This document shows positions 1,633 through 53,335 of a stretch of 64,000 bases of DNA, in pieces (the first letter of the stretch is position 1; every line of letters begins with the position of its first letter). Location: assembly GCA_903840415.1 (NCBI GenBank), contig CAIMFY010000096.1, positions 124,001 to 188,000 on the forward strand. Reading direction: 5' to 3'. The stretch is from an uncultured Opitutia bacterium. Its GTDB lineage: Bacteria > Verrucomicrobiota > Verrucomicrobiia > Opitutales > Opitutaceae. The position numbers were made by a program, and so were the translations under genes. The notes under the pieces are model-generated. The model made no database searches. It saw nothing but the letters and a program-made list of their open reading frames with translations, and was not told the DNA's origin.

Positions 1633-3267
1633 GTGAAACTCCAAACCAAACTCCTGTTCGCGTTGTTAGGTGGCCTGCTGGCCGTTTACTTCGTATCATT
1701 TTTGTTTCAGCAATCCCGCAGCTCGCATGCCGTGGAGAGCTTTTCCACAAGCAGTCGCGGAGGGGAATTGGCTCGCCAGTGGGAATGGGTCGATCGGCTG
1801 CATTTCGCGGCCTCCGCGCCGTTGATGGATGCGATGGCTGATGGGGAAATGGACAAGTTCGCCAATCTCCTTGTCACGCTTCGCGGGGTGCCTGGGCTGC
1901 AGGAGCTTTCGCTGTTCAATCAATACGGGCGGGTGGTTAAATCTTCCGACCCGGCGCGAGTGAAAAAGGAACTCACTGCGGATTTGAAGCAAGCGCTCTA
2001 TGCCTCACCTGCGGTGTTCAAGCGCCGCACTGACGATTCGTTTGAAATCTACCAACCCCTGGCCATTCAGCAAAGGTGCATCGAGTGCCACACGAATCTA
2101 AAGCTGGGGCAGATTCACGGCGTGATTAGCCTGCGCTTCTCGGACGCCGCGCTGAAGACCGCCGAGCAGTCTTGGGTCGGATTCGCCACGGATATGAAAC
2201 GGTCCAATCTGATGACCGCGGTGCTGACCGGCTTGGGTTTGCTGCTTACGGCGGGCCTGCTCGTGGGTTTTTCCATTCACTATTTCGTCAGCGTGCCTGT
2301 GAAGCGGATCGCCGGCGTGCTCGCGGAACAAGGCGGTTTACTCACCGCCTCCGCCGCCGCAGTTGAAACTTCCAGCCAGAGTCTGGCCGAGGGGGCGAGT
2401 GAACAAGCCGCCTCGCTCGAAGAGACCTCGGCCTCGCTCGAAGAGATGACGTCGATGACCAAGCGCAACGCCGACAACGCCGCGCAAGCCAAGGAATTCG
2501 CGGCGCAAACCCGTGCCGCCGCCGACACCGGCGCTACCGACATGGCGCAGATGAAAGGCGCTATGGACGCGATCACGCGCTCCTCGGGTGAAATCGCTAA
2601 GATTGTGAAGACGATCGACGAGATTGCATTTCAGACCAACCTCCTCGCCCTCAATGCCGCGGTTGAGGCCGCCCGCGCCGGCGAAGCCGGCCTCGGTTTT
2701 GCTGTCGTGGCCGATGAGGTCCGCGCATTGGCCCAGCGCTCCGCCCAAGCCGCCAAGGAAACCGCCGCGAAGATCGAAGACTCTGTCAGCAAGAGCGCGA
2801 ACGGCGTGACCATCTCGGCCAAGGTGGCGCAATCGCTCGAGCAAATTGTCGCGGGTGCCAGCAGGGTGGATACCCTAGTCGCCGAGATCGCGACCGCCTC
2901 GCACGAGCAGAGCCAAGGTATTGGCCAGGTAAACTCTGCCGTGTCCGAAATGGACAAGGTCACCCAATCAAACGCCAGCAGCGCCGAGGAGTCCGCCGCT
3001 GCCGCGCAGGAACTCAACGGACAGTCGTTGGCCCTCAAGCAGGTCGTCGCCAGCCTCCAGCAACTGGTCGGCGCCGACGCTCCACCCACTCATGTGAAGG
3101 CCCTCGCGGTGAAGCCCACCGCAGCAGTGATTCAACCGGCAATCGCGGCGCAAAAGCCGTCCGCCAGTGCGATCAAATTCGGTCGGCCGGTTCATTATCG
3201 CGATGGTCTCGCCGTGACGAGCGGTCGCATCGCCGGCGGCGACGACCAGTTTTTCAAAAACTCCTGA
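1633..3267 (+). CDS. Methyl-accepting chemotaxis protein with a haem-binding (DUF3365/Tll0287-like) sensor
   Basis: A 544-residue membrane chemoreceptor. TM1 spans about 6-24 and TM2 about 195-220, enclosing a periplasmic sensor of about 170 residues. Near the end of the sensor is 'CIECH' (149-153), a CxxCH motif that would bind c-type haem covalently, as in DUF3365-type sensors. The cytoplasmic part (about 235-480) is a long coiled coil with the CheA/CheW-binding hairpin '[21 protein letters not shown]'. It looks like a redox, oxygen or NO receptor. The hairpin sequence ('DEIAFQTN') belongs to a different receptor subtype from the three receptors at 40-46 kb ('EISSQTN'), so it may serve another array. 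The start is GTG. It stands alone, convergent with hflX. Confidence 0.93.
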
Positions 3268-35144: not shown

Positions 35145-35375
35145 ATGAACCTTCAAGAGCCCAATTTTTCACGAGTCTTGTCCAATGTGCGGCAACAGCT
35201 CGCTATGAGCCAAGAGGACTTGGCGCGGCAACTCGGGGTCAGCTACGCGACGGTCAACCGCTGGGAAAACGGGCATTCCCGGCCCTCGAAACTCGCAGTC
35301 GCCCAACTCAGCGCCTTCTGCGATCGGATGATCGCGCAGGGCAAGCTCGTCTTAGCGGAGGAATCGCGGACATGA
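35145..35375 (+). CDS. XRE-family helix-turn-helix regulator, first gene of the signalling operon
   Basis: A 76-residue protein that is almost wholly a Cro/C1-type HTH (about 10-65): 'LSNVRQQLAMSQEDLARQLG' and 'VSYATVNRWENGHSRPSKLA', with the typical recognition helix 'YATVNRWENG'. No sensor or dimerisation domain is attached. Its stop codon overlaps the start of the phosphatase gene by four bases (ATGA), so it is made with the partner-switching proteins and may autoregulate the operon. Such small XRE genes before response-regulator genes could act as local repressors or as adaptors; which applies is unknown. Confidence 0.88.
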   Translation: MNLQEPNFSRVLSNVRQQLAMSQEDLARQLGVSYATVNRWENGHSRPSKLAVAQLSAFCDRMIAQGKLVLAEESRT

Positions 35376-36496
35376 AGACGAGCGGCGAGCGGCAATTGCC
35401 CCCCATGGTCCTCGTGGTGGAAGATGATCCGACCACGCGGCGGACGTTGCAGGGTCTGCTTGCGGGCGCGGGCTTTCGGACGGCGACGGCGGAAACTCAG
35501 GCGGGTGCCTGGCCCGAGATTCGGGCGCAGCGTCCGGACCTGATGCTTCTGGATGTAAACTTGCCGGATGGAAATGGCTTCGAGATTTGCCAGAGGCTGC
35601 AAAAGGAACCCGGGCTGGGGCAGATCCCAGTTTTGTTTATTTCCGCCAACGATGAGTTGGCGGCGAAAGTGCGGGGCTTCGAAGTCGGTGGAGTCGATTA
35701 TATTTCCAAGCCGCTTGCCGGCGCCGAAGTGCTGGCTCGAGTCGGCACGCACCTGCGGGTCAAGCGCGCTTACGAGGCGCTCGTGGAATTGCAGGCGGAG
35801 CGCATGGAACGGCTGGCGAGCGCCCAAAAAAATACCATGCCGCAGCCGGCGGATCTGCCGGAGGCCAAGTTCACCGTCGCGATCCGACAGAAACTTCAGG
35901 CGGGCGGCGATTTTTACGACGTCATTCCTTCCGGCGAAAACAGTGTCGATTATATGGTGGCGGATGCCAGCGGCCACGACTTGGGCGCTTCCTACTGGAC
36001 CGCGGCGCTCAAGGCGCTGGTGTCGGAATACGCCAATCCGCTCAACTCTCCGGCCGACGTGCTGCGCGCGCTCAACAACGCGCTGCTGCGCATCCTGCCC
36101 GCCGGCGCGTTTTTCACGGTCATCTACGCCCGGCTGAATCGCCGGAGCCATCGCCTCAGCATCGCCAACGCCGGGCATCCGCCCGCGATCGTCACGCTCG
36201 CGCGCGGCGACGAAGTCATCGTCGTTCAGCAGGAGGGCGATGTGGTTGGCGCATTTTCCGACGCCGTTTTCGGAGTCACGGAAATGAAGCTGAATCAGGG
36301 TGACCGACTGTTCCTTTATTCTGACGGGCTCGTGGAGACGGGTGGTTCGGCCGCTGCCGGCGTGCGGCGTCTGGCGGACGCGTGCCGGGCCGGCTCCGCC
36401 GGGCCGCTCGCCGAGTTGGTGCCGTCGCTCGTGAACGAGATCGCAGCCGGTCACGATGCCTCGGACGATGTGGTGCTACTGGGAGTGGACGCATGA
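35372..36496 (+). CDS. Response regulator with SpoIIE/PP2C-type phosphatase output (RsbU/HsbR-like)
   Basis: A 374-residue receiver-phosphatase. The receiver (about 12-128) has 'VVEDDP' (E17, D18, D19), phosphoacceptor Asp61 in 'LLDVNLPDG' and Lys113 in 'YISKP'. A short coiled linker (130-155) leads to the SpoIIE-type PP2C domain (165-374) with metal ligands in 'GGDFYD' (178-183), 'DASGHD' (198-203) and the terminal 'DASDDVVLLGV'. In known partner-switching systems this enzyme dephosphorylates a STAS antagonist. The anti-sigma kinase and STAS genes follow immediately, each with overlapping or near-overlapping codons, so the module is complete. The receiver should be controlled by CheA or by the hybrid kinase of the same operon. 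Confidence 0.93.
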   Translation: MKTSGERQLPPMVLVVEDDPTTRRTLQGLLAGAGFRTATAETQAGAWPEIRAQRPDLMLLDVNLPDGNGFEICQRLQKEPGLGQIPVLFISANDELAAKVRGFEVGGVDYISKPLAGAEVLARVGTHLRVKRAYEALVELQAERMERLASAQKNTMPQPADLPEAKFTVAIRQKLQAGGDFYDVIPSGENSVDYMVADASGHDLGASYWTAALKALVSEYANPLNSPADVLRALNNALLRILPAGAFFTVIYARLNRRSHRLSIANAGHPPAIVTLARGDEVIVVQQEGDVVGAFSDAVFGVTEMKLNQGDRLFLYSDGLVETGGSAAAGVRRLADACRAGSAGPLAELVPSLVNEIAAGHDASDDVVLLGVDA

Positions 36497-36924
36497 AAAC
36501 CCACGCCCCGATCCCCGTGCGCGTTTTGCGCCGCGAAATTCCCTCGCGCCTTCCGGTGGTAGAATCCCTCTGTCGCGAGATCCGCGCGATCCTCCAGCAG
36601 AACGGACTGACCGCAGTCGCCTTTCCGGTGGAATTGTCCGCCCGGGAGTGCCTGAACAACGCCGCGCTGCACGGTAACCAGCGATTGGCGACTAAGCGCG
36701 TCGGTCTCGATTTCCGCATTGGTCGAAAATGGATTCGCCTGCAGGTCACCGATCAGGGGCGCGGCTACAACTGGCGCCGGGCGCGCGCTGCCGCGCTCTC
36801 GGACGGCACGAAGACGTCCGGCCGCGGCCTCGTTATCTGCACCCTCTACGCCCAGCGCGTCGCGTTCAACCAGCGCGGCAACCGCATCACCCTCTGGCTA
36901 GCGAAAACGAAAAAGGAGCAATGA
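36493..36924 (+). CDS. RsbW/SpoIIAB-type serine kinase (HATPase_c anti-sigma factor)
   Basis: A 143-residue GHKL ATPase. The N box is 'ELSARECLNNAALHG' (E52, N55, N56), the G1 box 'TDQGRGY' contains Asp87, and 'SGRGLVI' (110 onward) is the G2-like lid. No histidine phosphoacceptor domain is present, as expected for a serine kinase that phosphorylates STAS proteins and binds a sigma factor or another partner when the STAS protein is phosphorylated. ATG 36493 overlaps the upstream stop codon. The real target, whether a sigma factor, FlgM-like protein or an enzyme, is not encoded beside it. Confidence 0.88.
   Translation: MKTHAPIPVRVLRREIPSRLPVVESLCREIRAILQQNGLTAVAFPVELSARECLNNAALHGNQRLATKRVGLDFRIGRKWIRLQVTDQGRGYNWRRARAAALSDGTKTSGRGLVICTLYAQRVAFNQRGNRITLWLAKTKKEQ
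36913..36918 (+). promoter_or_regulatory. Shine-Dalgarno sequence deciding the STAS gene start
   Basis: AAGGAG lies 8 bases before the ATG at 36927 and only 2 bases before an earlier in-frame ATG at 36921. The spacing favours 36927. The site lies inside the last codons of the kinase gene. Confidence 0.75.
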
Positions 36925-36926
36925 TT

Positions 36927-37238
36927 ATGTCTGACTATACCATCGAAAAACGGGACCACGCTCTCCACCTGACCCTGACGGCCGACCTGACGGCGAGCGT
37001 CGTGCCCGGACTGCAAGCCGCCCTGCGCACCGCTCTCGGAGCCGACGTGACGGAAGTTGTGGCCGACCTGTCGCACACCGTGATGCTGGACTCGAGCGGC
37101 ATCGGCCTGCTCATCGCCACGAGCAACGCCCTTGCGAAGCGCGGCGGTCGCATCCGCGTCGTCAACGTCGCCCCCGATATCCTGCAACTGCTGCAAAGCA
37201 TGCGCCTGACGGCGCGGCTCAACACCAGCGGTCGCTAA
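36927..37238 (+). CDS. STAS-domain anti-sigma factor antagonist
   Basis: A 103-residue single STAS domain of the SpoIIAA/RsbV type. The phosphorylation loop is 'MLDSSGIGLLI', with Ser56 the likely phosphoacceptor (first Ser of DSSG), and the flanking helices 'AALRTALGADVTEVVADLS' and 'GGRIRVVNVAP' fit the fold. It is the expected substrate of the RsbW-like kinase and the SpoIIE phosphatase encoded just before it. CheA begins 14 bases later, which ties the partner switch to the chemosensory genes in one transcript. Confidence 0.92.
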   Translation: MSDYTIEKRDHALHLTLTADLTASVVPGLQAALRTALGADVTEVVADLSHTVMLDSSGIGLLIATSNALAKRGGRIRVVNVAPDILQLLQSMRLTARLNTSGR

Positions 37239-37252
37239 ACCCCGGCACCACC

Positions 37253-40200
37253 ATGGAAGACGAACTGCTCAACGAGTTTCTCAACGAGTCCCGCGAACAT
37301 CTCGCGACGATCGAAACCGATCTGCTGACGATCGAGGAAGGCGGCGCCAATGTGGACGAGGATCTCGTTAACAAAGTGTTTCGTGCCGCTCATTCCATCA
37401 AGGGCGGCAGCGGCTTCTTCGGTCTGACGAAGGTCAAGGAACTCGCGCACAAGGCCGAGACTGTCCTCGACATGCTCCGCTCCGGGAAAATGGTTCCCAA
37501 CGCCGAGATCACTAACGTCCTCCTCGCCGCGTTCGACAAGCTCCGGGAGATGGTCAACAACGTCGCGAATCAGGAGCAGGCCGACATCGCCGACCTGCTG
37601 GTCGCACTCGCCGGACTCGCCTCGTCCTACCTGCCGGCCGATCAAAAGGCGTCGCTCACGCAGAGCGTGGCGCTTCATCCGCCGGGCGACGAGCACACCA
37701 CCGTAACGGTGCCGCAGGTGGATTTCGACCGCGCGCGCCGCAGCGGCCAGCACGTGTATTGCGTGGACCTGGACCTCATCCACGACATCGAGCGCAAAGG
37801 CCGAACCGTCCTGTCCGTCTTCCGCGACATTTGGGAATCCGGCGAAATTCTGGACTGCGCCGTGAACTATGAGGCCGTCGGCGATCTGGATTCGCCGCTC
37901 GGCAATCAACTGCCGCTGCGGCTCGTCTTCGCCACGATCATCGGCCCGGGCGACATCGGAGTGCTCATCGAGGTCAGCGAAGAAAAACTCAAGGTCCTCT
38001 TCGATCCGAGCCAGACCACAACCCCGCCGCAACCGATCATGACCCCGGTCGCCCCCTCCCAGAATTTTGCCGTGCCGCCCCCGCCGGTGCCGCTCTCCTT
38101 CGCGCTCGCCACGCCGCCGGCTGCGACCGAACCCGCGACCTCGACCAAACTGGCCGTCTCGGAGACCCAGCTCTCGACGGACACCCGCACGGCCGCCGCG
38201 GCCGGCGATCGGACGCTCCGCGTCAACGTCACCCTGCTCGAGAGTCTGATGAATCTCGCGGGCGAACTCGTCCTGAGCCGTAACCAACTCCGCGCCGCCA
38301 TCGCGCAGGACGACGACCGCTCGCTCACCGAGGCCGATCAGCGCATCAACCAGGTTACCTCGGAATTGCAGGACGCGATCATGCAGACGCGCCTGCAGCC
38401 TATCGGCACGGTGTTCGGCAAGTTTCCCCGCGTCGTGCGCGACATCGCCAACGCCCTTGGCAAGGACGTACAACTCGACATCCACGGCCGCGACGTGGCA
38501 CTCGACAAGAGCCTGATCGAAGGTCTCTCCGATCCGCTTACCCACATGGTGCGCAACGCTGTCGATCACGGCATCGAGACGCCCGAGGAGCGGACGCGCG
38601 CCGGCAAGAAAAGCCAGGGCACCGTCCGCCTCGAAGCGCGCCACGAAGCCGGCCAGATCGTCATCGAGATCGCCGACGACGGCAAAGGCCTTGACCCGCG
38701 CAAGCTCGGCAAGTCCGCCGTCAAAAAAGGCCTGATGACCGCCGAGAAAATGGCGGAGCTTTCGGAGCAGGATCTTTTTGCCCTCATCTTTTTGCCCGGT
38801 TTCTCCACCGCGGAACAGGTCACTGATATTTCCGGCCGCGGCGTCGGCATGGATGTCGTCAAGACCAACCTCGACCGACTCGGCGGCAAAGTGGAAATCC
38901 ATTCCGTCATCGGCAAGGGCGCGCTCTTCCGCATCAAGCTGCCGCTCACGCTGGCCATCATGCCCTCGCTGATCGTGTCGGTGGGCCGCGAGCGGTTCGC
39001 GATCCCGCAGGTGAACGTCGAGGAGTTGCTCCACATCAACGTCGAGGACATCGCCAAGCGGATCGATGTGATCGGCGATGCGGAGGTGCTGCTCCTGCGC
39101 GATCGCATTTTGCCGTTGCTGCGCTTCGGCACGCTGCTCGGGCTCGCCTCGGATCGTCCGGCCAACAGCGAACTCGAGATCGCCGTCGTCACCACCGGCA
39201 CTCTGACTTACGGCCTGGTGGTGGACGCGTTCCACGACACCGAGGAAATCGTCGTCAAACCGCTGGGACGCCATCTCAAGGGGCTCCACGAGTATGCCGG
39301 CGCCACTATTCTCGGCGACGGCGCCGTGGCGCTGATATTGGATATCGGCGGGGTCGCCAACAAAGCGGAATTGGTGGCGGTGGCCAAGTCGCTCGCCGCG
39401 CACACCACGATCGAGGAAAGCCAAACGACCCGCACCGCAGAAACACAGTCGCTGCTGCTCTTCCACAACGCTCCCGACGAGCTTTGCGCGACGTCCTTGG
39501 CTTCGGTCCTGCGCATCGAGCGGATCAAGCCGGAGCAGGTAGAAACCGTGGCCGGCCGCCGCACGATGCAATATCGCGGCACCCTGCTGCCGCTGGTGAC
39601 GCTCGCCGATGTTGCTCGGGTAAAAGCCATCGGCGATGCCGCTGATTTGGTCGTCATCGTGACCAACGTCCGTGGCCGCGAAGTCGGCCTGCTCGGCGCG
39701 ATGCCGGTGGATGTCGTCGAAACTCAGGCGGCCATCGATCTCACGACGCACCGGCAGAAGGGCGTCGCGGGTTCGGCCATCATCGGCAACCGCATTGCCA
39801 TGGTCACCGACATGTTTGAGTTGGTGGACGGTGCCTGCGCCGACTGGGGCATCTTGCCGCCTGCGTTGCCCGAGGCCATCGCCACCGGAAAAAAATTCGT
39901 GGTGCTGCTCGCGGAGGATTCGGATTTCTTCCGCGCTCAGGTCAAACGCTACCTCGAGGAAGATGGCGATGCCGTGCTCGATGCCCCCGACGGCGAAAGT
40001 GCCTGGGAACTGCTGCTCGAACATCTCGACGAAGTGCAGGCCGTCGTCACCGACATCGAAATGCCACGGCTCACTGGCCTCGGCCTCGCCCAGCGTATCC
40101 GCGCCGACCGCCGCACCTCCAAGCTGCCGATCGTTGGCCTCAGCTCGCTCGCGGGCGAGGAAGACATCGCCCGCGGCAAGGCCGCCGGCTTCGACGATTA

Positions 40201-40294
40201 CCAAGTGAAACTCGACCGCGACCAACTCCTCGCCTGGGTGCGCCTCCACTCCGGCCAACTCGCGGCGTCCGAACCTGCCCTGCTCACCACCTGA
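37253..40294 (+). CDS. cheA: CheA-type kinase with tandem CheW-like domains and a C-terminal receiver
   Basis: A 1013-residue chemotaxis-type histidine kinase. Domains in order are: Hpt (1-110) with His47 in 'AAHSIKGGSGFFG'; a P2-like domain (about 150-250); a Pro-rich linker (255-318); dimerisation helices (320-385); HATPase (390-565) with the N box 'HMVRNAVDHGIETPEE' and G box 'DDGKGLD'; CheW-like domain 1 (568-705); a second CheW-like domain (730-860, 'QSLLLFHNAPDELCATSLAS', 'RGTLLPLVTLADV'); and a receiver (881-1000) with Asp934 in 'VVTDIEMP'. Two CheW-like domains in one CheA is unusual. It would be linked to receptors through the CheW gene 6 kb downstream, and could phosphorylate its own receiver, CheB and the phosphatase's receiver. 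Confidence 0.94.
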   Translation: MEDELLNEFLNESREHLATIETDLLTIEEGGANVDEDLVNKVFRAAHSIKGGSGFFGLTKVKELAHKAETVLDMLRSGKMVPNAEITNVLLAAFDKLREMVNNVANQEQADIADLLVALAGLASSYLPADQKASLTQSVALHPPGDEHTTVTVPQVDFDRARRSGQHVYCVDLDLIHDIERKGRTVLSVFRDIWESGEILDCAVNYEAVGDLDSPLGNQLPLRLVFATIIGPGDIGVLIEVSEEKLKVLFDPSQTTTPPQPIMTPVAPSQNFAVPPPPVPLSFALATPPAATEPATSTKLAVSETQLSTDTRTAAAAGDRTLRVNVTLLESLMNLAGELVLSRNQLRAAIAQDDDRSLTEADQRINQVTSELQDAIMQTRLQPIGTVFGKFPRVVRDIANALGKDVQLDIHGRDVALDKSLIEGLSDPLTHMVRNAVDHGIETPEERTRAGKKSQGTVRLEARHEAGQIVIEIADDGKGLDPRKLGKSAVKKGLMTAEKMAELSEQDLFALIFLPGFSTAEQVTDISGRGVGMDVVKTNLDRLGGKVEIHSVIGKGALFRIKLPLTLAIMPSLIVSVGRERFAIPQVNVEELLHINVEDIAKRIDVIGDAEVLLLRDRILPLLRFGTLLGLASDRPANSELEIAVVTTGTLTYGLVVDAFHDTEEIVVKPLGRHLKGLHEYAGATILGDGAVALILDIGGVANKAELVAVAKSLAAHTTIEESQTTRTAETQSLLLFHNAPDELCATSLASVLRIERIKPEQVETVAGRRTMQYRGTLLPLVTLADVARVKAIGDAADLVVIVTNVRGREVGLLGAMPVDVVETQAAIDLTTHRQKGVAGSAIIGNRIAMVTDMFELVDGACADWGILPPALPEAIATGKKFVVLLAEDSDFFRAQVKRYLEEDGDAVLDAPDGESAWELLLEHLDEVQAVVTDIEMPRLTGLGLAQRIRADRRTSKLPIVGLSSLAGEEDIARGKAAGFDDYQVKLDRDQLLAWVRLHSGQLAASEPALLTT

Positions 40295-40331
40295 CCCACC
40301 CTTTACTGATAAAATTTAACGCTCCGAAATC

Positions 40332-42557
40332 ATGAACCTCAACAACCTCAAGACAGGAAACAGACTCACCCTCGGCTTCGGCTTTGTGACCGCGCTGTTG
40401 CTGCTGCTCGCCGCTAATTCGTGGCGACAAATGGATGCCATCGACCAAGGCATGAACACCGCGCTGGCGCAGGCCAACAAGATGGTTACGATCAAAGATG
40501 TCGACAGTCTGACCAACACGATTGACCTCGAAATTTGGGGCCTCGTCACCGCCAAGGATTCCGCAGACAAACAGGCGCACAAGGCCGCGATCGCCAAGAC
40601 GCGCGAGGAAGCCCAGCGCAAGATTGCCCTGCTGAAGTCCCAAGCCGGACACCAGCAAGACAAGGATCTGCTGGCGGCGCTGGAGACGGCCCTGACTACA
40701 GCCGATGCTCTCAATCAGCGTGTCATCGATCTCGGGCTCAAGAGCGATGGTCAGGAGGCCAAGGCACTGGAGCTGTTTCAAAACGAGGGCGCGAAAGTGA
40801 TGTTCGAGAAAATCGATCCGGCGATCGATGCGATGGTCACCTATCGGGAGAAGCGCATTCAGGAGGTGGTGACCGCCGCCGAGGCCGCCTACAGTCAGGC
40901 GCGCTGGACACTGGTCATCGGTGCGGTGGCGGCATTGGTGCTCGTGGTGTTTTTCGGCATTGTCATCACCCGAAGCATCGTGGTCCCGGTTAGGGGCTAC
41001 GTTGGATTCACCCAGCAGCTGGCCAGTGGTGATTTTTCCAAAGCGGTGCCGGAGGCCCTCCGCCAGCGCGGTGACGAAATGGGCGATCTGGCGCGCGCAT
41101 TCGATACCATGACGGACAATTTGCGCAAGCTGTTGCGCGAGATCAACGGCGGGGTGGAAACCCTCGCCGCATCTGCCACCGAACTCTCCAGCGTGTCCGG
41201 GCAAACGGCTGTCGGCGTGAAATCGATGTCTGACAAGACCGCCACGGTCGCGGCCGCCGCCGAGGAAGCGAGCGCCAACACGATGTCCGTCGCGGCCGGC
41301 ATGGAACAGGCCGCCACGAACCTCTCCTCGGTCGCCAGCGCGACAGAGGAGATGAGCGCCACGGTCGGCGAAATCGCCGCCAACTCGGAAAAAGCCCGCA
41401 ACATCAGCGAGCAGGCCACGGCCCAGACCGAGAGCATCTCAAGCATGATGCAGCAACTCGGGCAGTCCGCCCGCGACATCGGCAAAGTAACCGAGACCAT
41501 CACGGAAATTTCCTCGCAGACCAATTTGCTGGCGCTCAACGCCACCATTGAAGCCGCTCGCGCCGGTGCCGCTGGCAAAGGCTTCGCCGTCGTGGCGAAT
41601 GAAATCAAGGAACTCGCCCGGCAAACTGCCGCCGCGACCGAAGACATCAAGGCCAAGATTTCCGGCGTGCAGACTTCCGCCGGCAGCGCCATCGCCGACA
41701 TCGACAAGATCGCCAGCGTGATCAAGGAGGTGGGCTCCATCGTTTCCAACATCGCTGCCGCCATCGACGAACAGGCCAAGGTGACGAAGGACGTCGCGGG
41801 CAACATTGCCCAGGCCACCGCCGGCGTGAAGGATTCCAACGAGCGTGTGGCGCAGACGGCCACCGTCTCGAAATCCATCGCGCAGGATGTTGCCAGCATA
41901 AGCGCTGCCGTGAGCGACATCCGCTCCGGCGGCGAACAAGTCGAGGCCAGTGCCGCCGAACTCTCCCAACTCTCCGACAATCTGCGGCAGTTGGTGAGCC
42001 GCTTCCGGACCAACGATACGGGCGCAGGTGCCACCAATACCGCGCGTTCGCGCTCTCATTCCGATGCCGCTGACAGTGGCAGCAGCGCGGCATCCGCCGA
42101 TCGGATATCAGCACCGCCGCCCGAACGGGCGCATCGCCCGTTCATCGAATGGTCCGAGAGTTATTCCGTAGGTGTGCCAGCGATGGATCAACATCACAAA
42201 AAGCTGTTTGATTTGATCAACAGCCTCCACGCTGCCATGCGAACTGGTCAAAGCCGCACCGCCTTGGGCGCGGCGTTGGAGGAGTTGGCGAATTATGTGA
42301 ACTATCATTTCGCCGCCGAGGAAAAGCTGATGAAACAGCACAATTGCGCCGGGCTGGCCGACCAGATCGCGGCACACTCCGGCTTGGTTGAGAAAGTCAC
42401 TGCGCTGCGCCAGCAGTTTGCCAGCGGTCAGCAAGGTTTGGGCGTCGAAGTGCTCAACATGCTCCGCGACTGGCTGGTGAATCACATCCAACGCAAGGAC
42501 AAGGCCTGCATGTCCACCGTCTGCGAAGTGGCCCGGGCCCGCGCGACCACACGCTAG
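40332..42557 (+). CDS. Methyl-accepting chemotaxis protein with C-terminal haemerythrin
   Basis: A 741-residue receptor. A four-helix-bundle sensor (about 30-195) lies between TM1 (about 13-30) and TM2 (about 197-218); HAMP follows (about 220-272), then the signalling coiled coil with the tip '[21 protein letters not shown]'. After a Ser/Ala linker (about 560-600), residues 605-735 are a bacteriohaemerythrin: '[20 protein letters not shown]', '[11 protein letters not shown]' (HxxxE), 'AAHSGLVEK' and 'HIQRKDKAC' (HxxxxD) give the expected diiron ligands. The haemerythrin is cytosolic and after the signalling part, so oxygen binding would act on the receptor from the C-terminal side, as described for DcrH-type proteins. 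Next receptor gene starts 24 bases later. Confidence 0.94.
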
Positions 42558-42568
42558 AACAATCAAAC

Positions 42569-42572
42569 GGAG
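42569..42572 (+). promoter_or_regulatory. Ribosome-binding site for a TTG start
   Basis: GGAG, eight bases before TTG at 42581, is the only good ribosome-binding site in front of the second receptor gene and supports the TTG start. No in-frame ATG lies before the first transmembrane segment. Confidence 0.65.
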
Positions 42573-42580
42573 ACATACCT

Positions 42581-44374
42581 TTGTTTAACTTCAATAATTT
42601 GAAAATCGGCCGTCGGCTCGGCGTCACTTTCGGAGCCATGGTTGCAATGATGCTGGTTGGCACAGCAATGGCGCTCTACGCGGTTACGTTCCTCAAGACG
42701 ACGATGGCCTCGAGTCTCGACGAATCTAAGATGATGGAGCAAATCCGCTGCGTCCGTTCAGACTTGGACGACGTATATCTCAACATCTGGAACACCCTTG
42801 CTGAGAAGGAGCCGGTCAAAAAAAATGAGCGCAAGCAGGCTTTGGAGGCAGCTCGTGCGAGCTACCTCAAACGCATCAATGACCTTAAAGCGTCTAATTT
42901 GGATGAGGCGGGAAAACGCTTGTTCGAGACGTTAGAAACCGCACTCGCCGCAGCCAGAAACACAAACGGTAAAGTCATCGCCTTGGCGACCGAAGGCAAG
43001 GATGCCGAGGCAACAAACCTCATGTTAGCAGAAGGCACTAAGCTGAGGAAGCGCGTCGATGAGGCCTTCGACGCAATTGTCCGCATGCAAGCTGATCAAA
43101 TCAACGCTGCCAACGAGACAACAGCAAAGCGCTTGGTGACATTCTACGAGCTCTTAATTGCCGGCTTGGCTGTCGGGTTGGTCCTCGCGGTTTCCTTCGC
43201 GCTTTATATCACGCGCGGCATAGTCCGTCCGCTCTCAATTGGCGTTAATCAGCTGAACCAGGTCAGTCGCGGAAACCTGACAGAGGACGTGCCGAATGTA
43301 TTGCTGAGTCGGAAGGACGAGGTAGGCGAACTCGCCCAATCTCTGCAGTCCATGACTGAAAACATGCGCAAATTAGTGCGCGATGTTTCGACTGGGGTGG
43401 AGACACTGGCCTTATCGGCCAGCGAACTCTCCACGGTCTCGGGAAAGACTGCGGTTGGCGTGAAATCGGTGTCCGACAAGACCACCACGGTTGCGGCGGC
43501 CGCCGAGGAGGCGAGTGCCAACACGATGTCCGTCGCGGCCGGCATGGAGCAGGCAGCCACAAACCTCTCGTCGGTGGCGAATGCCACGGAACAGATGAGT
43601 GCCACGGTCGGCGAAATCGCCGCCAACTCCGAAAAGGCCCGCAGCATCAGCGAACAGGCGACTGTGCAGGCCGAGGGTATCTCGGGTCTCATGCAGCAAC
43701 TCGGACAGTCGGCCCGCGAAATCGGTAAAGTCACCGAGACGATCACCGAAATTTCCTCTCAAACTAATTTGTTGGCGCTCAACGCCACCATCGAGGCCGC
43801 CCGGGCTGGTGCCGCCGGCAAGGGCTTCGCCGTCGTCGCGAATGAAATCAAGGAACTCGCCCGCCAGACCGCCGCCGCCACCGAGGACATCAAGGCCAAG
43901 ATCGGCGGGGTGCAGTCATCCGCTGGAAGCGCCATCGCCGATATCGACAAGATCGCCAGCGTGATCAAGGAAGTCGGCGCCATCGTTTCCAACATCGCTG
44001 CCGCGATCGAGGAGCAGGCGACGGTAACGAAAGATGTGGCTGGCAACATCGCCCAAGCCACCGCCGGCGTGAAAGATTCCAACGAGCGCGTCGCCCAGAC
44101 CGCCACCGTCTCAAAAACCATTGCCCAAGACGTGACTGGCATCAGTGCCGCTGTGAGTGACATCCGTTCCGGGGGCGAACAGGTGGATGCAAGCGCAGCA
44201 GAGCTCTCCAAACTCGCCGACGAGCTTAGGCAGATGGTTGGACAGTTCCAGATCAACCAAGCGACCACAGAGCGCACGGGCGCACCGAGGACGAGCCGCG
44301 AGCACGCCCACGTAAACGGCACGAGTGTGGTCAGCGGCCCAGCATCTACAAATCGGATATCCCTTCATGCTTAA
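42581..44374 (+). CDS. Methyl-accepting chemotaxis protein, second receptor of the operon
   Basis: A 597-residue receptor starting at TTG with a GGAG ribosome-binding site. TM1 (about 15-36), a four-helix-bundle sensor (40-180), TM2 (about 187-210), HAMP (about 212-265) and a signalling coiled coil with '[21 protein letters not shown]' follow in order. There is no C-terminal accessory domain, only a 40-residue tail. The first ~280 codons are visibly more AT-rich than the neighbours, while the rest is nearly the same as in the two flanking receptor genes, so it looks like a chimera in which a foreign or older sensor was joined to the local signalling domain. The stop codon overlaps the next receptor gene by eight bases. 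Confidence 0.92.
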
Positions 44375-46559
44375 ATCACTGAATAACCTGAAACTGGCCA
44401 CCCGCATCGTCGCGATCACGCTGCTTATCGTGAGCGGTGTCGTCGCGGTGAACTACGCCATCTTCGTTCGCAGCTACCGCGCGAGCGCCCAAACCGCCAT
44501 GTTCGAGAAAGCCAAGGTGTTCAGCGCCGTGGCCGACGAAGCGAAGAACCACGTCAGTCTGTTGCACCGCACCGGGGCGATTGACGACAAGGTCCTCGCC
44601 GCCGAACTCAAGACCGACCTCGCCGCCGGCAAGGCCGTCAAGGACACCAAGTTTTTTGCCACTATCCCGGTGGTCGCCGGCTGGACGGCCGCCGAAGAAG
44701 CGGCGAAGCGTGAGAACATCGAGTTCCGCATCACATCGTTCAACTCGCGCAACAAGGATCACGAGCCGGCGCCGGGCTCGTTCGACGAACAGTTGTTGCG
44801 TCGTCTCACCGACCAAGTCGCCGCGAACCAGGGCGAGGTGATCCAAGCCGTCAATCCGGCCGACAACTCGCTGCACGTGATGCGCGCCGTGAAGCTCACC
44901 GAAAACTGCCTGATGTGCCACGGCTCGCCCGGCAGCAAATGGGACGTGAACCACGACGGAAAAGATTTGACCGGACACGTCATGGAAAGTTGGAAGGCCG
45001 GCGACATGCACGGCAGCTACCACGTCGTGATGCCTCTCGCACCCGTGAGCGAGCAGGTGACCGCCTTTCTGCTGAACGGACTGAGTTGGACCGTCCCGCT
45101 GCTGGTGGTCGTCATCGGCCTTTTTGTTTACCTGATCACGGTGTCGATCGGGCGGCCAGTGGAAGCGCTCAAGGACAGCACGACTGCCATCGCCCACGGC
45201 GATCTGAAGCATGAAATCCCCGCCAACCTCCTGATGCGCGGCGACGAAATCGGCGACTTGTCCCGATCGATGCGCGATTTGAGCACCGCGCTCCGCAGCT
45301 CGCTGCTCGAAGTGCTCAGCAGCACCGGCACGCTTGGCGTTCTCTCCGATGGCCTGCACACCACGTCGCAACGCCTGACCATCAGTGCCCGCAGCACCTC
45401 CGAGCGTGCCGACACCGTCGCCGCCGCCGCCGAGGAATCGAGTGCCAACACCGCCTCCGTCGCGACTGGCATGGAGCAGGCTTCGGCCAATCTCTCCTCT
45501 GTTGCCGCCGCTACCGAGGAACTCAGCGCCACCGTCGCTGAGATCGCCGGCAATTCCGCTCGTGCCCGCCTCGTCGGCGAGCAAGCCGGCGCGCAGGCGC
45601 AGGCCGTGGCGTCTGTCGTCCAAGAGTTGGGCCAAGCCGCCCAAGCCATCGGCAAGGTCACGGAAACGATCACCAAAATTTCCGCCCAGACCAACCTCCT
45701 CGCGTTGAACGCCACCATCGAAGCCGCCCGTGCCGGTGCCGCTGGCAAAGGTTTCGCCGTGGTCGCCCATGAAATCAAGGAACTGGCGCGTCAAACGGCC
45801 GCTGCGACCGAAGACATCAAGTCCAAGGTCTCCGGCGTCCAAATGTCCACCGCCAGCGCGATCACTGACATCGAAAAAATTTCCGGTGTTATCCAAGAAG
45901 TCGGCCAGTTGGTGGCCAGCATCGCCACGGCGATCGAGGAGCAGACTGTCGTCACCAAGGACGTCGCCTCGAATATCTCACAGGCCTCCGCCGGCATTCA
46001 CGAGGCGAACGACCGCGTCGCGGAAACTGCCACCGTCTCGAAATCCATCGCCGCTGACATTGCCCAAGTCAGCAGCCAGGGCCGCGCGATCAATAACGAC
46101 AGCACGCGCCTCCAGGAAGATGCCGACATGCTGCGCGGTGTTTCGGAACGGCTCAAGCAGCTCACTGCGCGGTTCCAACTAGGCCAGCAGACTGACTTCG
46201 CCGCCATCAAGAAGGGCCATCTCCAGTGGCGCAACCGGCTGATCGACATGTTTGAGGGCCGACAGAACCTGACCTCCGCGGACGTCGTCGATCACCATAG
46301 TTGTGCGCTCGGCAAATGGTATGACCACGACGGCCAGGAAAAATTCCAGCAGATGCCGAAGTTCCAGCAATTGGGCACCGACCACGCGGCCTTCCACGCG
46401 CTCGTCGCCGAGATCGTGCAGATGTGGAACGGCGGACGGCAGACCGAGGCGCGCCAGCGCTTCGACAAGTTAATTCCGATGACCACGCAACTCTTCGCGC
46501 TCCTCGACGAAATCGCCCTCGACACCGCCAACGAACCCACCTCTACCCATGAACGGTAA
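44367..46559 (+). CDS. Methyl-accepting chemotaxis protein with haem sensor and C-terminal CZB domain
   Basis: A 730-residue receptor. TM1 (about 12-34) and TM2 (about 237-260) flank a periplasmic DUF3365-type sensor with the c-haem motif 'CLMCH' (181-185), shown by '[13 protein letters not shown]'. HAMP and a signalling coiled coil ('[21 protein letters not shown]') follow. The last 120 residues form a chemoreceptor zinc-binding (CZB) domain: 'GHLQWRNRL' (His), '[10 protein letters not shown]' (Cys in the C-x-LG-W motif) and 'DHAAFHALV' (HxxxH), giving the 3His/1Cys site. Haem outside and Zn/Cys inside make it a likely two-input redox receptor. The ATG at 44367 overlaps the previous stop. 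Its own stop overlaps CheW by 11 bases. Confidence 0.94.
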
Positions 46560-47037
46560 TTCTCACACCTCCGACGACGCACTGCTGCTGGCGAGTTTCG
46601 CTCTCGGTGACGCCGTCTTCGGCATCGATGCCCAGCAGATTCAGGAAGTGGCGAAGGTAGGTGAAATCACGCCCGCGCGCCATGCTCCGGCCTGCGTGAT
46701 CGGCATTCGCAATCTGCGCGGCCGCGTCATTACCGTCTTGGATCTGCGCATCCGGCTGGAACTGGGTGCGGTGCAGATCGGACACGACAGCCGCGTGCTC
46801 ATCGTCGAAGGCGAGGGCGGTGAGCCTGTCGGCCTGCTCGTGGACCGCGTCGATGACATGATCGCGGTCAATCCCAAGGATATCATGGCCGCTCCACCGA
46901 ACATGAATGGCGTGAAGAATCGCAACCTGCGTGGCGTGTTTCGCGGCGGCAAACGCCTCGTCGCCGTGCTGGATCTCGCCTCGGTGCTCCACACCGATCT
47001 GGGCGAGGGCCTGACCCAAGAGAAGCTCACCGCATGA
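46549..47037 (+). CDS. cheW: Chemotaxis coupling protein CheW
   Basis: A 162-residue CheW that links receptors to CheA. The two beta-barrel subdomains show '[18 protein letters not shown]', '[20 protein letters not shown]' and '[12 protein letters not shown]', typical of CheW. Its start lies 11 bases inside the end of the third receptor gene, and its stop overlaps the CheB start by four bases, so the set is translationally coupled. It is the only free CheW in the operon; CheA itself contains two further CheW-like domains. Confidence 0.94.
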
Positions 47038-48161
47038 GCCTCCGCGTCGTCGTGGCCGATGATTCGGTTTTGTTTCGCCGAGCAATCAGCGATGCGCTGG
47101 GCGCGTTGCCCGACGTGGAAGTCGTCGGCAGCGCGGCCAACGGCAAGCTGGCGCTCCAGAAAGTGCGCGATCTCAAACCCGATCTGTTGACCCTCGATCT
47201 TGAGATGCCCGAGATTGACGGGCTGGCCGTGCTCGACGCGCTCCGCCAAAGCGGCAGCAAGATGAGCGTGATCGTGGTGAGTGCGCTCACGCGCCGCGGC
47301 GGCGACATGACGCTGCGCGCCTTGGAAAAGGGCGCGTTCGACTTTATCACCAAGCCCGATACTGCCGGCCCCGACGAAAGCCGCGAAGCGATCCGGCGCG
47401 AACTCGCGCCGCGCTTGCGCGCCCTGTCTAATCGGGTCGCCGTGCGCAAACTTCTGCATCATCCGGCGCCGGTGCCCGCTCCGACGATCGCCAGCGTTCC
47501 GCGGCCCGATCCCAAACCAGTGCATGCGGGCCTCGCAGAAATCGCCGGCCGGATGAACCGGCTTGTGTCGCCCAATCGGCCCGAGATGGTGCTCATCGGT
47601 GTCTCCACCGGGGGCCCGAATGCACTGGCGCGGCTGATGCCCCAACTGCCGAAAGACCTCGGCGTGCCGATCCTAATCGTGCAGCACATGCCGCCGGTTT
47701 TCACTCTGTCGCTCGCTGAAAGTCTCGCCGCGAAATGCGGCGTGAAGGTGCGCGAAGCTACGCATGGCGACATTCTCGCCGCCAACACCGCCTACATCGC
47801 GCCGGGCGGCCGCCAGATGCGTCTGGCCCCTGGCCCCGACGGCAGTCGCGTCATCCAGATCACCGACGATCCCTCGGAGAACAACTGCCGCCCGGCGGTG
47901 GATTATCTTTTCCGATCGGTCGCAACGCATTTTCCGGGCCGCGCCATGGCGGTGATTCTTACCGGCATGGGCAGCGACGGCACGATCGGCTTGCGGCTGC
48001 TCAAACGGCACAACGCTTTCGTCATCGCGCAAGATGAGGCGAGTTGCGTGGTTTTCGGTATGCCCAAGGCGGCGGTGGACGCCAAAGTCACCGATGTGAT
48101 TTTGCCGCTCGAAGCCATCGCGGCCCGCATCACCGCCACCGTGCGCGGAGGTCACTCATGA
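47034..48161 (+). CDS. cheB: Chemotaxis response regulator protein-glutamate methylesterase CheB
   Basis: A 375-residue adaptation enzyme that removes methyl groups from receptor glutamates when phosphorylated. The receiver (1-125) has 'VVADDSVLFRRAI' and Asp55 in 'LTLDLEMPEIDG'; after a linker (130-175), the methylesterase domain (about 185-370) has the catalytic triad Ser in 'IGVSTGGPNAL', His in 'IVQHMPPVF' and Asp in 'TGMGSDGTIGL'. It overlaps cheW (ATGA) before it and cheR (ATGA) after it. Presence of CheB and CheR shows that the operon has a full adaptation system. Confidence 0.96.
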   Translation: MSLRVVVADDSVLFRRAISDALGALPDVEVVGSAANGKLALQKVRDLKPDLLTLDLEMPEIDGLAVLDALRQSGSKMSVIVVSALTRRGGDMTLRALEKGAFDFITKPDTAGPDESREAIRRELAPRLRALSNRVAVRKLLHHPAPVPAPTIASVPRPDPKPVHAGLAEIAGRMNRLVSPNRPEMVLIGVSTGGPNALARLMPQLPKDLGVPILIVQHMPPVFTLSLAESLAAKCGVKVREATHGDILAANTAYIAPGGRQMRLAPGPDGSRVIQITDDPSENNCRPAVDYLFRSVATHFPGRAMAVILTGMGSDGTIGLRLLKRHNAFVIAQDEASCVVFGMPKAAVDAKVTDVILPLEAIAARITATVRGGHS

Positions 48162-49000
48162 GCGTCACCATCACTCGAGACGAATTCACCGTGTGGTCTC
48201 GTTACATCTACGAGATTTGCGGGATTTTTCTCGACGATTCCAAAGGCTACCTCTTGGAAACGCGGCTCAGCAGTCTGATGCGCGAGGTCGGCGTGGCGGG
48301 CTTTTCGGAACTTTATTACAAGGCGAAGTCCGATCTCACTAACGCGCTGCGCCGCAAAATCGTCGATGCCATCACGACGAACGAGACCTCGTTCTTCCGC
48401 GACAGCGCGCCGTTTGATCTGCTGCGGCACAAGTTGATCCCCGAGCTTGTGGACCGCCGCAAGAAGGCCGGCCTGCGGCTCGTGCCGATCCGGATCTGGA
48501 GCGCGGCTTGCTCCACGGGACAGGAAGCCTACAGCACGGGCATCGTGCTCAAGGAACTGCTGGTCGATACGAACAGCTACGATATCCGCATCGTCGGCAC
48601 CGACATCTCGGACAAGGCCGTCGCACAGGCCAGCCACGGCTATTTCTCGCGGATGGAACTCGAGCGCGGCATGCCCGGCGACAAGGCGAGCCGCTACTTC
48701 GTGCCCAACGGTGACCGCTGGAAAATCCGGGACGACATCCGAGGCATGGCCTCGTTTCGCACGATGAACCTGCTGCAGCCGTTTTCCTTTCCCGCGCCGT
48801 TCGACATCATTTTCTGCCGCAACGTCGCGATCTATTTTACCGAGCCGGACAAAATCCGCCTGTTTCAAAACCTCGGTCGCAGCCTCGCCCGCGACGGCGC
48901 GCTGATCATCGGCTCAACGGAATCGCTCACCGGCCTGTGCCCGGAGTTTGAACCGAAGCGTCACCTGCGTTCCGTGTTCTACCAGAAAAAAGAAGGGTGA
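48158..49000 (+). CDS. cheR: Chemotaxis protein methyltransferase CheR
   Basis: A 280-residue SAM-dependent methyltransferase that methylates receptor glutamates. The helical N-terminal domain (1-75) is followed by 'TTNETSFFRD', the SAM site 'IWSAACSTGQEAYS', 'GTDISDKAV' and 'DIIFCRNVAIYF', all CheR signatures. None of the three receptors ends in the NWETF-type docking peptide, so CheR should bind receptor coils directly. The ATG at 48158 overlaps the cheB stop; longer open codons upstream are inside cheB. Confidence 0.96.
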   Translation: MSVTITRDEFTVWSRYIYEICGIFLDDSKGYLLETRLSSLMREVGVAGFSELYYKAKSDLTNALRRKIVDAITTNETSFFRDSAPFDLLRHKLIPELVDRRKKAGLRLVPIRIWSAACSTGQEAYSTGIVLKELLVDTNSYDIRIVGTDISDKAVAQASHGYFSRMELERGMPGDKASRYFVPNGDRWKIRDDIRGMASFRTMNLLQPFSFPAPFDIIFCRNVAIYFTEPDKIRLFQNLGRSLARDGALIIGSTESLTGLCPEFEPKRHLRSVFYQKKEG

Positions 49001-49003
49001 CAG

Positions 49004-53335
<4,332 letters not shown>

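Follow-up and report, generated by a model that had tools for sequence, protein, structure and literature searches.

A membrane chemoreceptor of Verrucomicrobiota with a predicted periplasmic c-type heme sensor and a C-terminal CZB zinc-binding domain

The sCache_heme family comprises c-type heme sensors in which the CXXCH heme motif is 99% conserved (preprint PMC12889525). For its signalling members, both NO sensing and redox sensing are reported; their affinity for NO is high, no stable oxy complex is formed, and the axial cysteine of the redox type is absent (preprint PMC12889525). Among described proteins, Geobacter GSU0582 and GSU0935 and the sCache_heme-HAMP protein of P. azotoformans have a periplasmic Cache fold, the CXXCH motif, two transmembrane helices and a HAMP domain, to which the Geobacter pair adds an MCP domain. 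In GSU0582 and GSU0935 the heme ligand switches with the redox state, and NO is bound (PMC8396549). The periplasmic c-heme sensor can also be combined with a second cytoplasmic module. An example of such an arrangement is DcrA of Desulfovibrio, where this module is a PAS domain (PMC8396549).

CZB domains respond to oxidants (HOCl) via a Zn-Cys thiolate (PMC8262984) and may follow external redox conditions indirectly, through the pool of free zinc (preprint PMC13370339). In TlpD of H. pylori, McpA of Salmonella and the membrane-bound receptors of the CZB survey, a 3His/1Cys CZB domain follows the MCP domain at the C-terminus. The membrane receptors listed in the survey carry 4HB, globin and PAS/Cache sensors, and a c-heme sensor is not named there (PMC8262984). 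Because the list already includes globin-CZB receptors, there is in principle a precedent for joining a heme protein to CZB. Both domain families are published, and their pairing is undescribed in the literature searched: no description of DUF3365 and CZB in one protein was found, no CZB is reported for GSU0582, GSU0935 or the P. azotoformans protein, and the sCache_heme preprint (PMC12889525) does not mention zinc or CZB.

The receptor described here carries both modules. It is encoded on the plus strand at 44367..46559 of the window, i.e., of the whole 64,000-nucleotide stretch of DNA from an uncultured Opitutia bacterium that was analysed. The open reading frame of 730 aa starts with an ATG codon at 44367, and the end of the upstream receptor gene (42581-44374) overlaps this start by 8 bases. 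The order of the protein is TM1, sCache_heme, TM2, HAMP, MCP signalling domain and CZB. The Tll0287-like/DUF3365 (sCache_heme) domain covers residues 39-223 (44481..45035, +) and includes the c-type heme attachment motif CLMCH at residues 181-185 (44907..44921, +). It is followed by HAMP at residues 260-310 (45144..45296, +), by the core of the MCP signalling domain (Pfam MCPsignal) at residues 405-557 (45579..46037, +) and by CZB at residues 618-684 (46218..46418, +), with the predicted zinc ligands H618, C646, H673 and H677. All four Pfam domains exceed the curated cut-offs; the Tll0287-like match (PF11845) scores 68.3 bits (cut-off 24.1; E 1.2e-18), and the CZB match (PF13682) scores 57.0 bits (cut-off 29.4; E 2.6e-15).

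The Tll0287-like domain is flanked by two hydrophobic segments, at about residues 8-35 and 231-265. This topology assigns CLMCH to the periplasmic side of the membrane and CZB to the cytoplasmic side. The Cache fold, CXXCH, two transmembrane helices and HAMP are thus shared with GSU0582, GSU0935 and the P. azotoformans protein, and the MCP domain with the Geobacter pair, whereas CZB, which is not reported for these three, sets the receptor apart. In comparison with the CZB receptors, the 3His/1Cys domain stands after the MCP domain as in TlpD, McpA and the survey proteins, but TlpD is soluble and cytoplasmic and has no c-heme sensor, whereas the present protein is membrane-bound with a predicted one. 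The HAMP and MCP signalling domains, together with the Che partners, identify it as a methyl-accepting chemotaxis receptor. Its only three cysteines all belong to the two sites: C181 and C184 lie in the heme motif, and C646 is the cysteine of the zinc site.

The N-terminal part aligns to Tll0287 (PDB 5b82) in a phmmer search with an E-value of 0.01. AlphaFold2 models of the heme domain and of the CZB part were built from six-sequence alignments. The heme-domain model (pLDDT 85.1) finds the same Tll0287 structure, 5b82, as its best PDB match in Foldseek (E 2e-7, probability 1.00), and the domain of Geobacter GSU0935 (3b42) is among the next, weak matches. The model has a Cache fold, in which the motif lies in helix 147-153 and is followed by strand 182-191 (fragment numbering). 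In the alignment, CXXCH is invariant across six fused proteins, from 95% down to 27% heme-domain identity, with the residues C149, C152 and H153 in the numbering of fragment A1. Tll0287 and the P. putida protein have a cysteine as the distal ligand, whereas the heme domain of the present receptor has no other cysteine to serve as an axial or distal ligand. A missing axial cysteine and a labile sixth ligand set the NO-sensor type apart from the Cys/His redox type. Conservation points to M45, M206 and H215 as candidates for the sixth ligand; of these, M45, a methionine in a helix, is shared by the receptors of the operon type and one member of the remote family f4 (both described below), and is replaced by Leu in one remote relative. 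The genome encodes cytochrome c assembly proteins.

At the opposite end of the chain, the C-terminal part aligns to the CZB domain of DgcZ (3t9o; phmmer E 0.025). In this alignment H618, C646, H673 and H677 fall on the 3His/1Cys residues of DgcZ, which we take to be the zinc ligands of that structure. The four positions (H42, C70, H97 and H101 in the numbering of fragment A2) are invariant across the six fused proteins, and together with the C-x-L/F-G-x-W motif they are unchanged down to 25% identity. The Cys-x-Leu-Gly-x-Trp core is common to the known CZB chemoreceptors and the present one; position 2 of the motif is Ala here, and receptor CZBs favour Arg at this position (PMC8262984). The CZB-part model has a pLDDT of 82.7 and matches the DgcZ CZB (3t9o) and the DosC MID domain in Foldseek with a probability of 1.00, but with an E-value of 0.095 and a query TM of 0.53-0.60. 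The CZB assignment is therefore based on the Pfam match and on the conservation of the predicted ligands, with the fold match as support. The sequence-only reading had located CLMCH in the periplasmic part and a 3His/1Cys CZB site at the C-terminus, and both placements hold, as the profile matches, the hydrophobic segments and the 3t9o alignment agree with them; mutated ligands, which it named as grounds for refutation, were looked for by alignment, and all heme-motif and zinc-ligand residues are intact. Its description of two redox-sensitive metal centres on opposite sides of the membrane stands with respect to the intact sites and their location, but the wording is too strong for zinc, which is not itself redox-active.

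A search of genome contigs with the receptor protein returned three loci, all from Verrucomicrobiota MAGs, with orthologues at 96% (L066, the same locus as G232:C51), 78% (L064, subdivision 3) and 75% (L065) identity. CLxCH and the four zinc ligands are kept in all three. In an order-level survey of 273 genomes, PF11845 matches occurred in 33 and CZB in 12; at the phylum level (387 genomes), the corresponding counts were 50 and 15. Fused PF11845-MCP-CZB proteins are present in six Verrucomicrobiota genomes (G000, G232, G030, G062 and the genomes of L064 and L065). Those of G030 and G062 (L117 and L118) have 708 and 705 aa, are encoded by orphan genes and belong to another family (f4), with 27-29% identity to the window receptor in the heme domain and 25-29% over the compared parts; despite this distance, the residues of the heme motif and the zinc ligands are all unchanged. 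A plasmid survey outside the phylum found no fused heme-CZB protein. The idea that the pairing is unique to the source genome was rejected by the orthologues and the remote f4 members. The sequence-only reading knew heme-type DUF3365 receptors and CZB receptors as separate kinds, and their pairing is indeed not described in the literature searched, but it is not a one-off, being present in at least six Verrucomicrobiota genomes. Two independent profile matches, the conservation in distant relatives and the fold matches exclude chance, and the pairing of the heme and zinc sites in the receptor is confirmed as real, intact and conserved.

A further receptor with both modules is encoded on contig C16 of G232 (L079 5957-7969, -). 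It has a CIECH sensor with a weak PF11845 match (E 0.17), and its CZB domain (E 8.4e-10) is above the cut-off. Its counterpart in the window is a second c-heme receptor at 1633-3267 (+), which has CIECH, the same heme sensor and a weak match to Mcp40H-20_sensor (PF21563); this receptor has no CZB, and no CZB remnant was found downstream of it. Other arrangements were also observed. At G248:C9:120244-121431 (L072, L045), a stand-alone DUF3365 match and a small CZB-only match share a strand and lie within about 0.7 kb, which may mean that the two sensors can also act as separate adjacent proteins. Receptors at L040, L043, L044 and L053 of other Verrucomicrobiota begin with two CZB domains in tandem, presumably on the periplasmic side, an arrangement that is little described.

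The history of the fusion was followed in domain trees, which are built from short domains with long branches and are individually weak evidence. In the signalling-domain tree, the operon-type receptors nest within the group formed by the adjacent receptors of the same operons; the f4 type is placed elsewhere, and the G232:C16 receptor falls in a different major class. A single clade of operon-type and f4 signalling domains was rejected (p-AU 0.0004), and one of operon-type and G232:C16 signalling domains was rejected more strongly. A joint clade was likewise rejected for the operon-type and G232:C16 CZB domains (p-AU 0.00013), and the CZB of G232:C16 groups with small CZB-only proteins. Common descent of all fused heme-CZB proteins as one family is therefore rejected by both the signalling-domain and the CZB trees. 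Since common ancestry of the operon and G232:C16 types is rejected, two or more separate origins of the pairing are probable. For the heme domains (p 0.11) and the CZB domains (p 0.39), a single clade of operon-type and f4 members is not rejected, so these two types could go back to one old fusion whose signalling part was exchanged later, for instance by gene conversion between neighbouring genes of the operon; f4 may therefore be either a third assembly or a descendant of that fusion.

These results bear on the explanation that the co-occurrence of heme and CZB is incidental domain shuffling without functional meaning. Sensor and tail domains do shuffle freely within the order, where CZB is also found at the receptor N-terminus and as small CZB-only proteins, and the sensor domains in the CZB survey are diverse (PMC8262984). 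Nevertheless, distant Verrucomicrobiota have a fixed operon whose orthologous receptors retain the pair, the trees indicate more than one assembly, and a CXXCH sensor is present in 7 of the 10 C-terminal-CZB receptors of the Verrucomicrobiota loci, a small sample that is biased by having been fetched partly by the heme domain. Meaningless shuffling is thus considered unlikely.

Chemosensory pathways can serve functions other than the control of flagella. Examples of such alternative-function pathways are Wsp and Frz, which have a CheA-REC fusion and their own CheB, CheR and CheW, and exist in addition to the flagellar system. The operon 35372-53335, in which the heme-CZB receptor is encoded, likewise combines CheA-REC with its own CheB, CheR and CheW. 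It is tightly packed, with all genes co-directional (+). It is headed by genes for a REC-SpoIIE (PP2C-type) phosphatase (35372..36496; start approximate, mechanical ORF from 34706), a HATPase_c_2 (RsbW-like) protein (36493..36924) and a STAS (anti-anti-sigma-like) protein (36927..37238), and this head of the operon is kept in L064. The next gene encodes a hybrid CheA with Hpt, a dimer domain, HATPase, two CheW domains and REC (37253..40294). Two 4HB-HAMP-MCP receptors, one with a C-terminal bacteriohemerythrin (40332..42557) and one of 597 aa without this tail (42581..44374), precede the heme-CZB receptor, and CheW (46549..47037), CheB (47034..48161), a CheR-type methyltransferase (48158..49000; start from the MSVTITRDEF reading, identity by synteny and sequence) and a hybrid histidine kinase with dCache_3, three PAS, HisKA, HATPase, two REC and Hpt domains (49004..53335) follow it; the domains of CheA, the two receptors, CheW, CheB and the hybrid kinase were assigned by Pfam. 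The gene order is kept in L064 and L066, although hemerythrin-type receptors differ in number, and in L065 over the part covered. Where the operon has SpoIIE-phosphatase, HATPase and STAS genes, Wsp and Frz have a diguanylate cyclase or a gliding regulator.

The full set of CheW, CheB and CheR and the presence of flagellins in the genome would suit a receptor of flagellar chemotaxis that serves redox sensing or aerotaxis and has no special output. However, of the two CheA genes of the genome, the other lies on contig C104, which has two of the four flagellin matches; the CheA of the operon has its own REC domain, the operon starts with REC-SpoIIE, HATPase and STAS, and no stand-alone CheY or flagellar gene was seen in it. 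A purely flagellar role is accordingly improbable. Because the other CheA is on the flagellin contig and the operon has putative output genes of its own, the operon looks like a second chemosensory system, as judged by gene order. By the same criterion, the REC-SpoIIE/HATPase/STAS genes may link the CheA array to a partner-switching output. No described case of a chemosensory pathway with CheA and STAS partner-switching was found in the literature searched, where the looser search covered the top-ranked titles.

The tails of the neighbouring receptors vary. The counterpart of receptor 42581-44374 at L066 (5739-7976, 745 aa) has a hemerythrin tail, which the window copy appears to have lost or never had. 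As the hemerythrin tail differs between sister-genome counterparts, receptor tails look dispensable. According to one explanation, the heme end alone senses, and CZB gives no second signal but serves structure or localisation, or holds a stable zinc ion for structural purposes. This explanation would gain from the variation of the tails and from the role of the TlpD C-terminus in polar localisation as well as function (PMC13001251), but the four zinc ligands and C-x-L/F-G-x-W are invariant down to 25% identity, and the CZB zinc sites of TlpD, DgcZ and McpA respond to oxidants or zinc (PMC8262984, PMC13370339), so that it has little probability.

The preferred reading, to which a probability of about 0.65 is assigned, is that the receptor integrates a periplasmic heme input and a cytoplasmic zinc input and sets the activity of the CheA-REC kinase of its operon, with a likely partner-switch output. 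The domain order, the topology given by hydrophobicity, the intact ligands, the conservation of the operon and the cytochrome c assembly genes are observed; from them we infer the metal loading, the ligands sensed, the joint reading of both inputs and the output. According to this reading, the state of the heme would shift TM2 and HAMP, and the 3His/1Cys zinc site at the cytoplasmic C-terminus would read labile zinc or the thiol-oxidant status. Zinc occupancy would then act on the same signalling bundle from the other end of the chain, via the C-terminal tail. Both inputs would converge on one CheA-REC kinase, shared with the hemerythrin-tailed receptor of the same operon. Such a receptor would resemble DcrA in joining a periplasmic c-heme sensor to a second cytoplasmic module, which is PAS in DcrA, hemerythrin in the hemerythrin-tailed receptors, such as the neighbouring 40332-42557, and zinc-binding CZB here. 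The output would most likely run through the REC-SpoIIE/HATPase/STAS partner-switch and the hybrid kinase rather than through the flagellar motor alone, and may be a stress or lifestyle response. A further proposal, which is put forward tentatively, is that heme and CZB were joined repeatedly and independently in Verrucomicrobiota as a transmembrane coincidence detector, which would set periplasmic NO/redox against the cytoplasmic zinc/thiol state, and that the array drives a partner-switching stress response and not motility.

If both sites work, a single protein would monitor the oxidant and NO chemistry of the periplasm and of the cytoplasm. Either site can be knocked out by a single residue (C181/C184/H185 or C646), which makes the two-input integration accessible to direct tests. 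That the pairing recurs suggests that it is selected for, and through the operon 35372-53335 a chemosensory array may be connected to a SpoIIE/STAS partner-switch.
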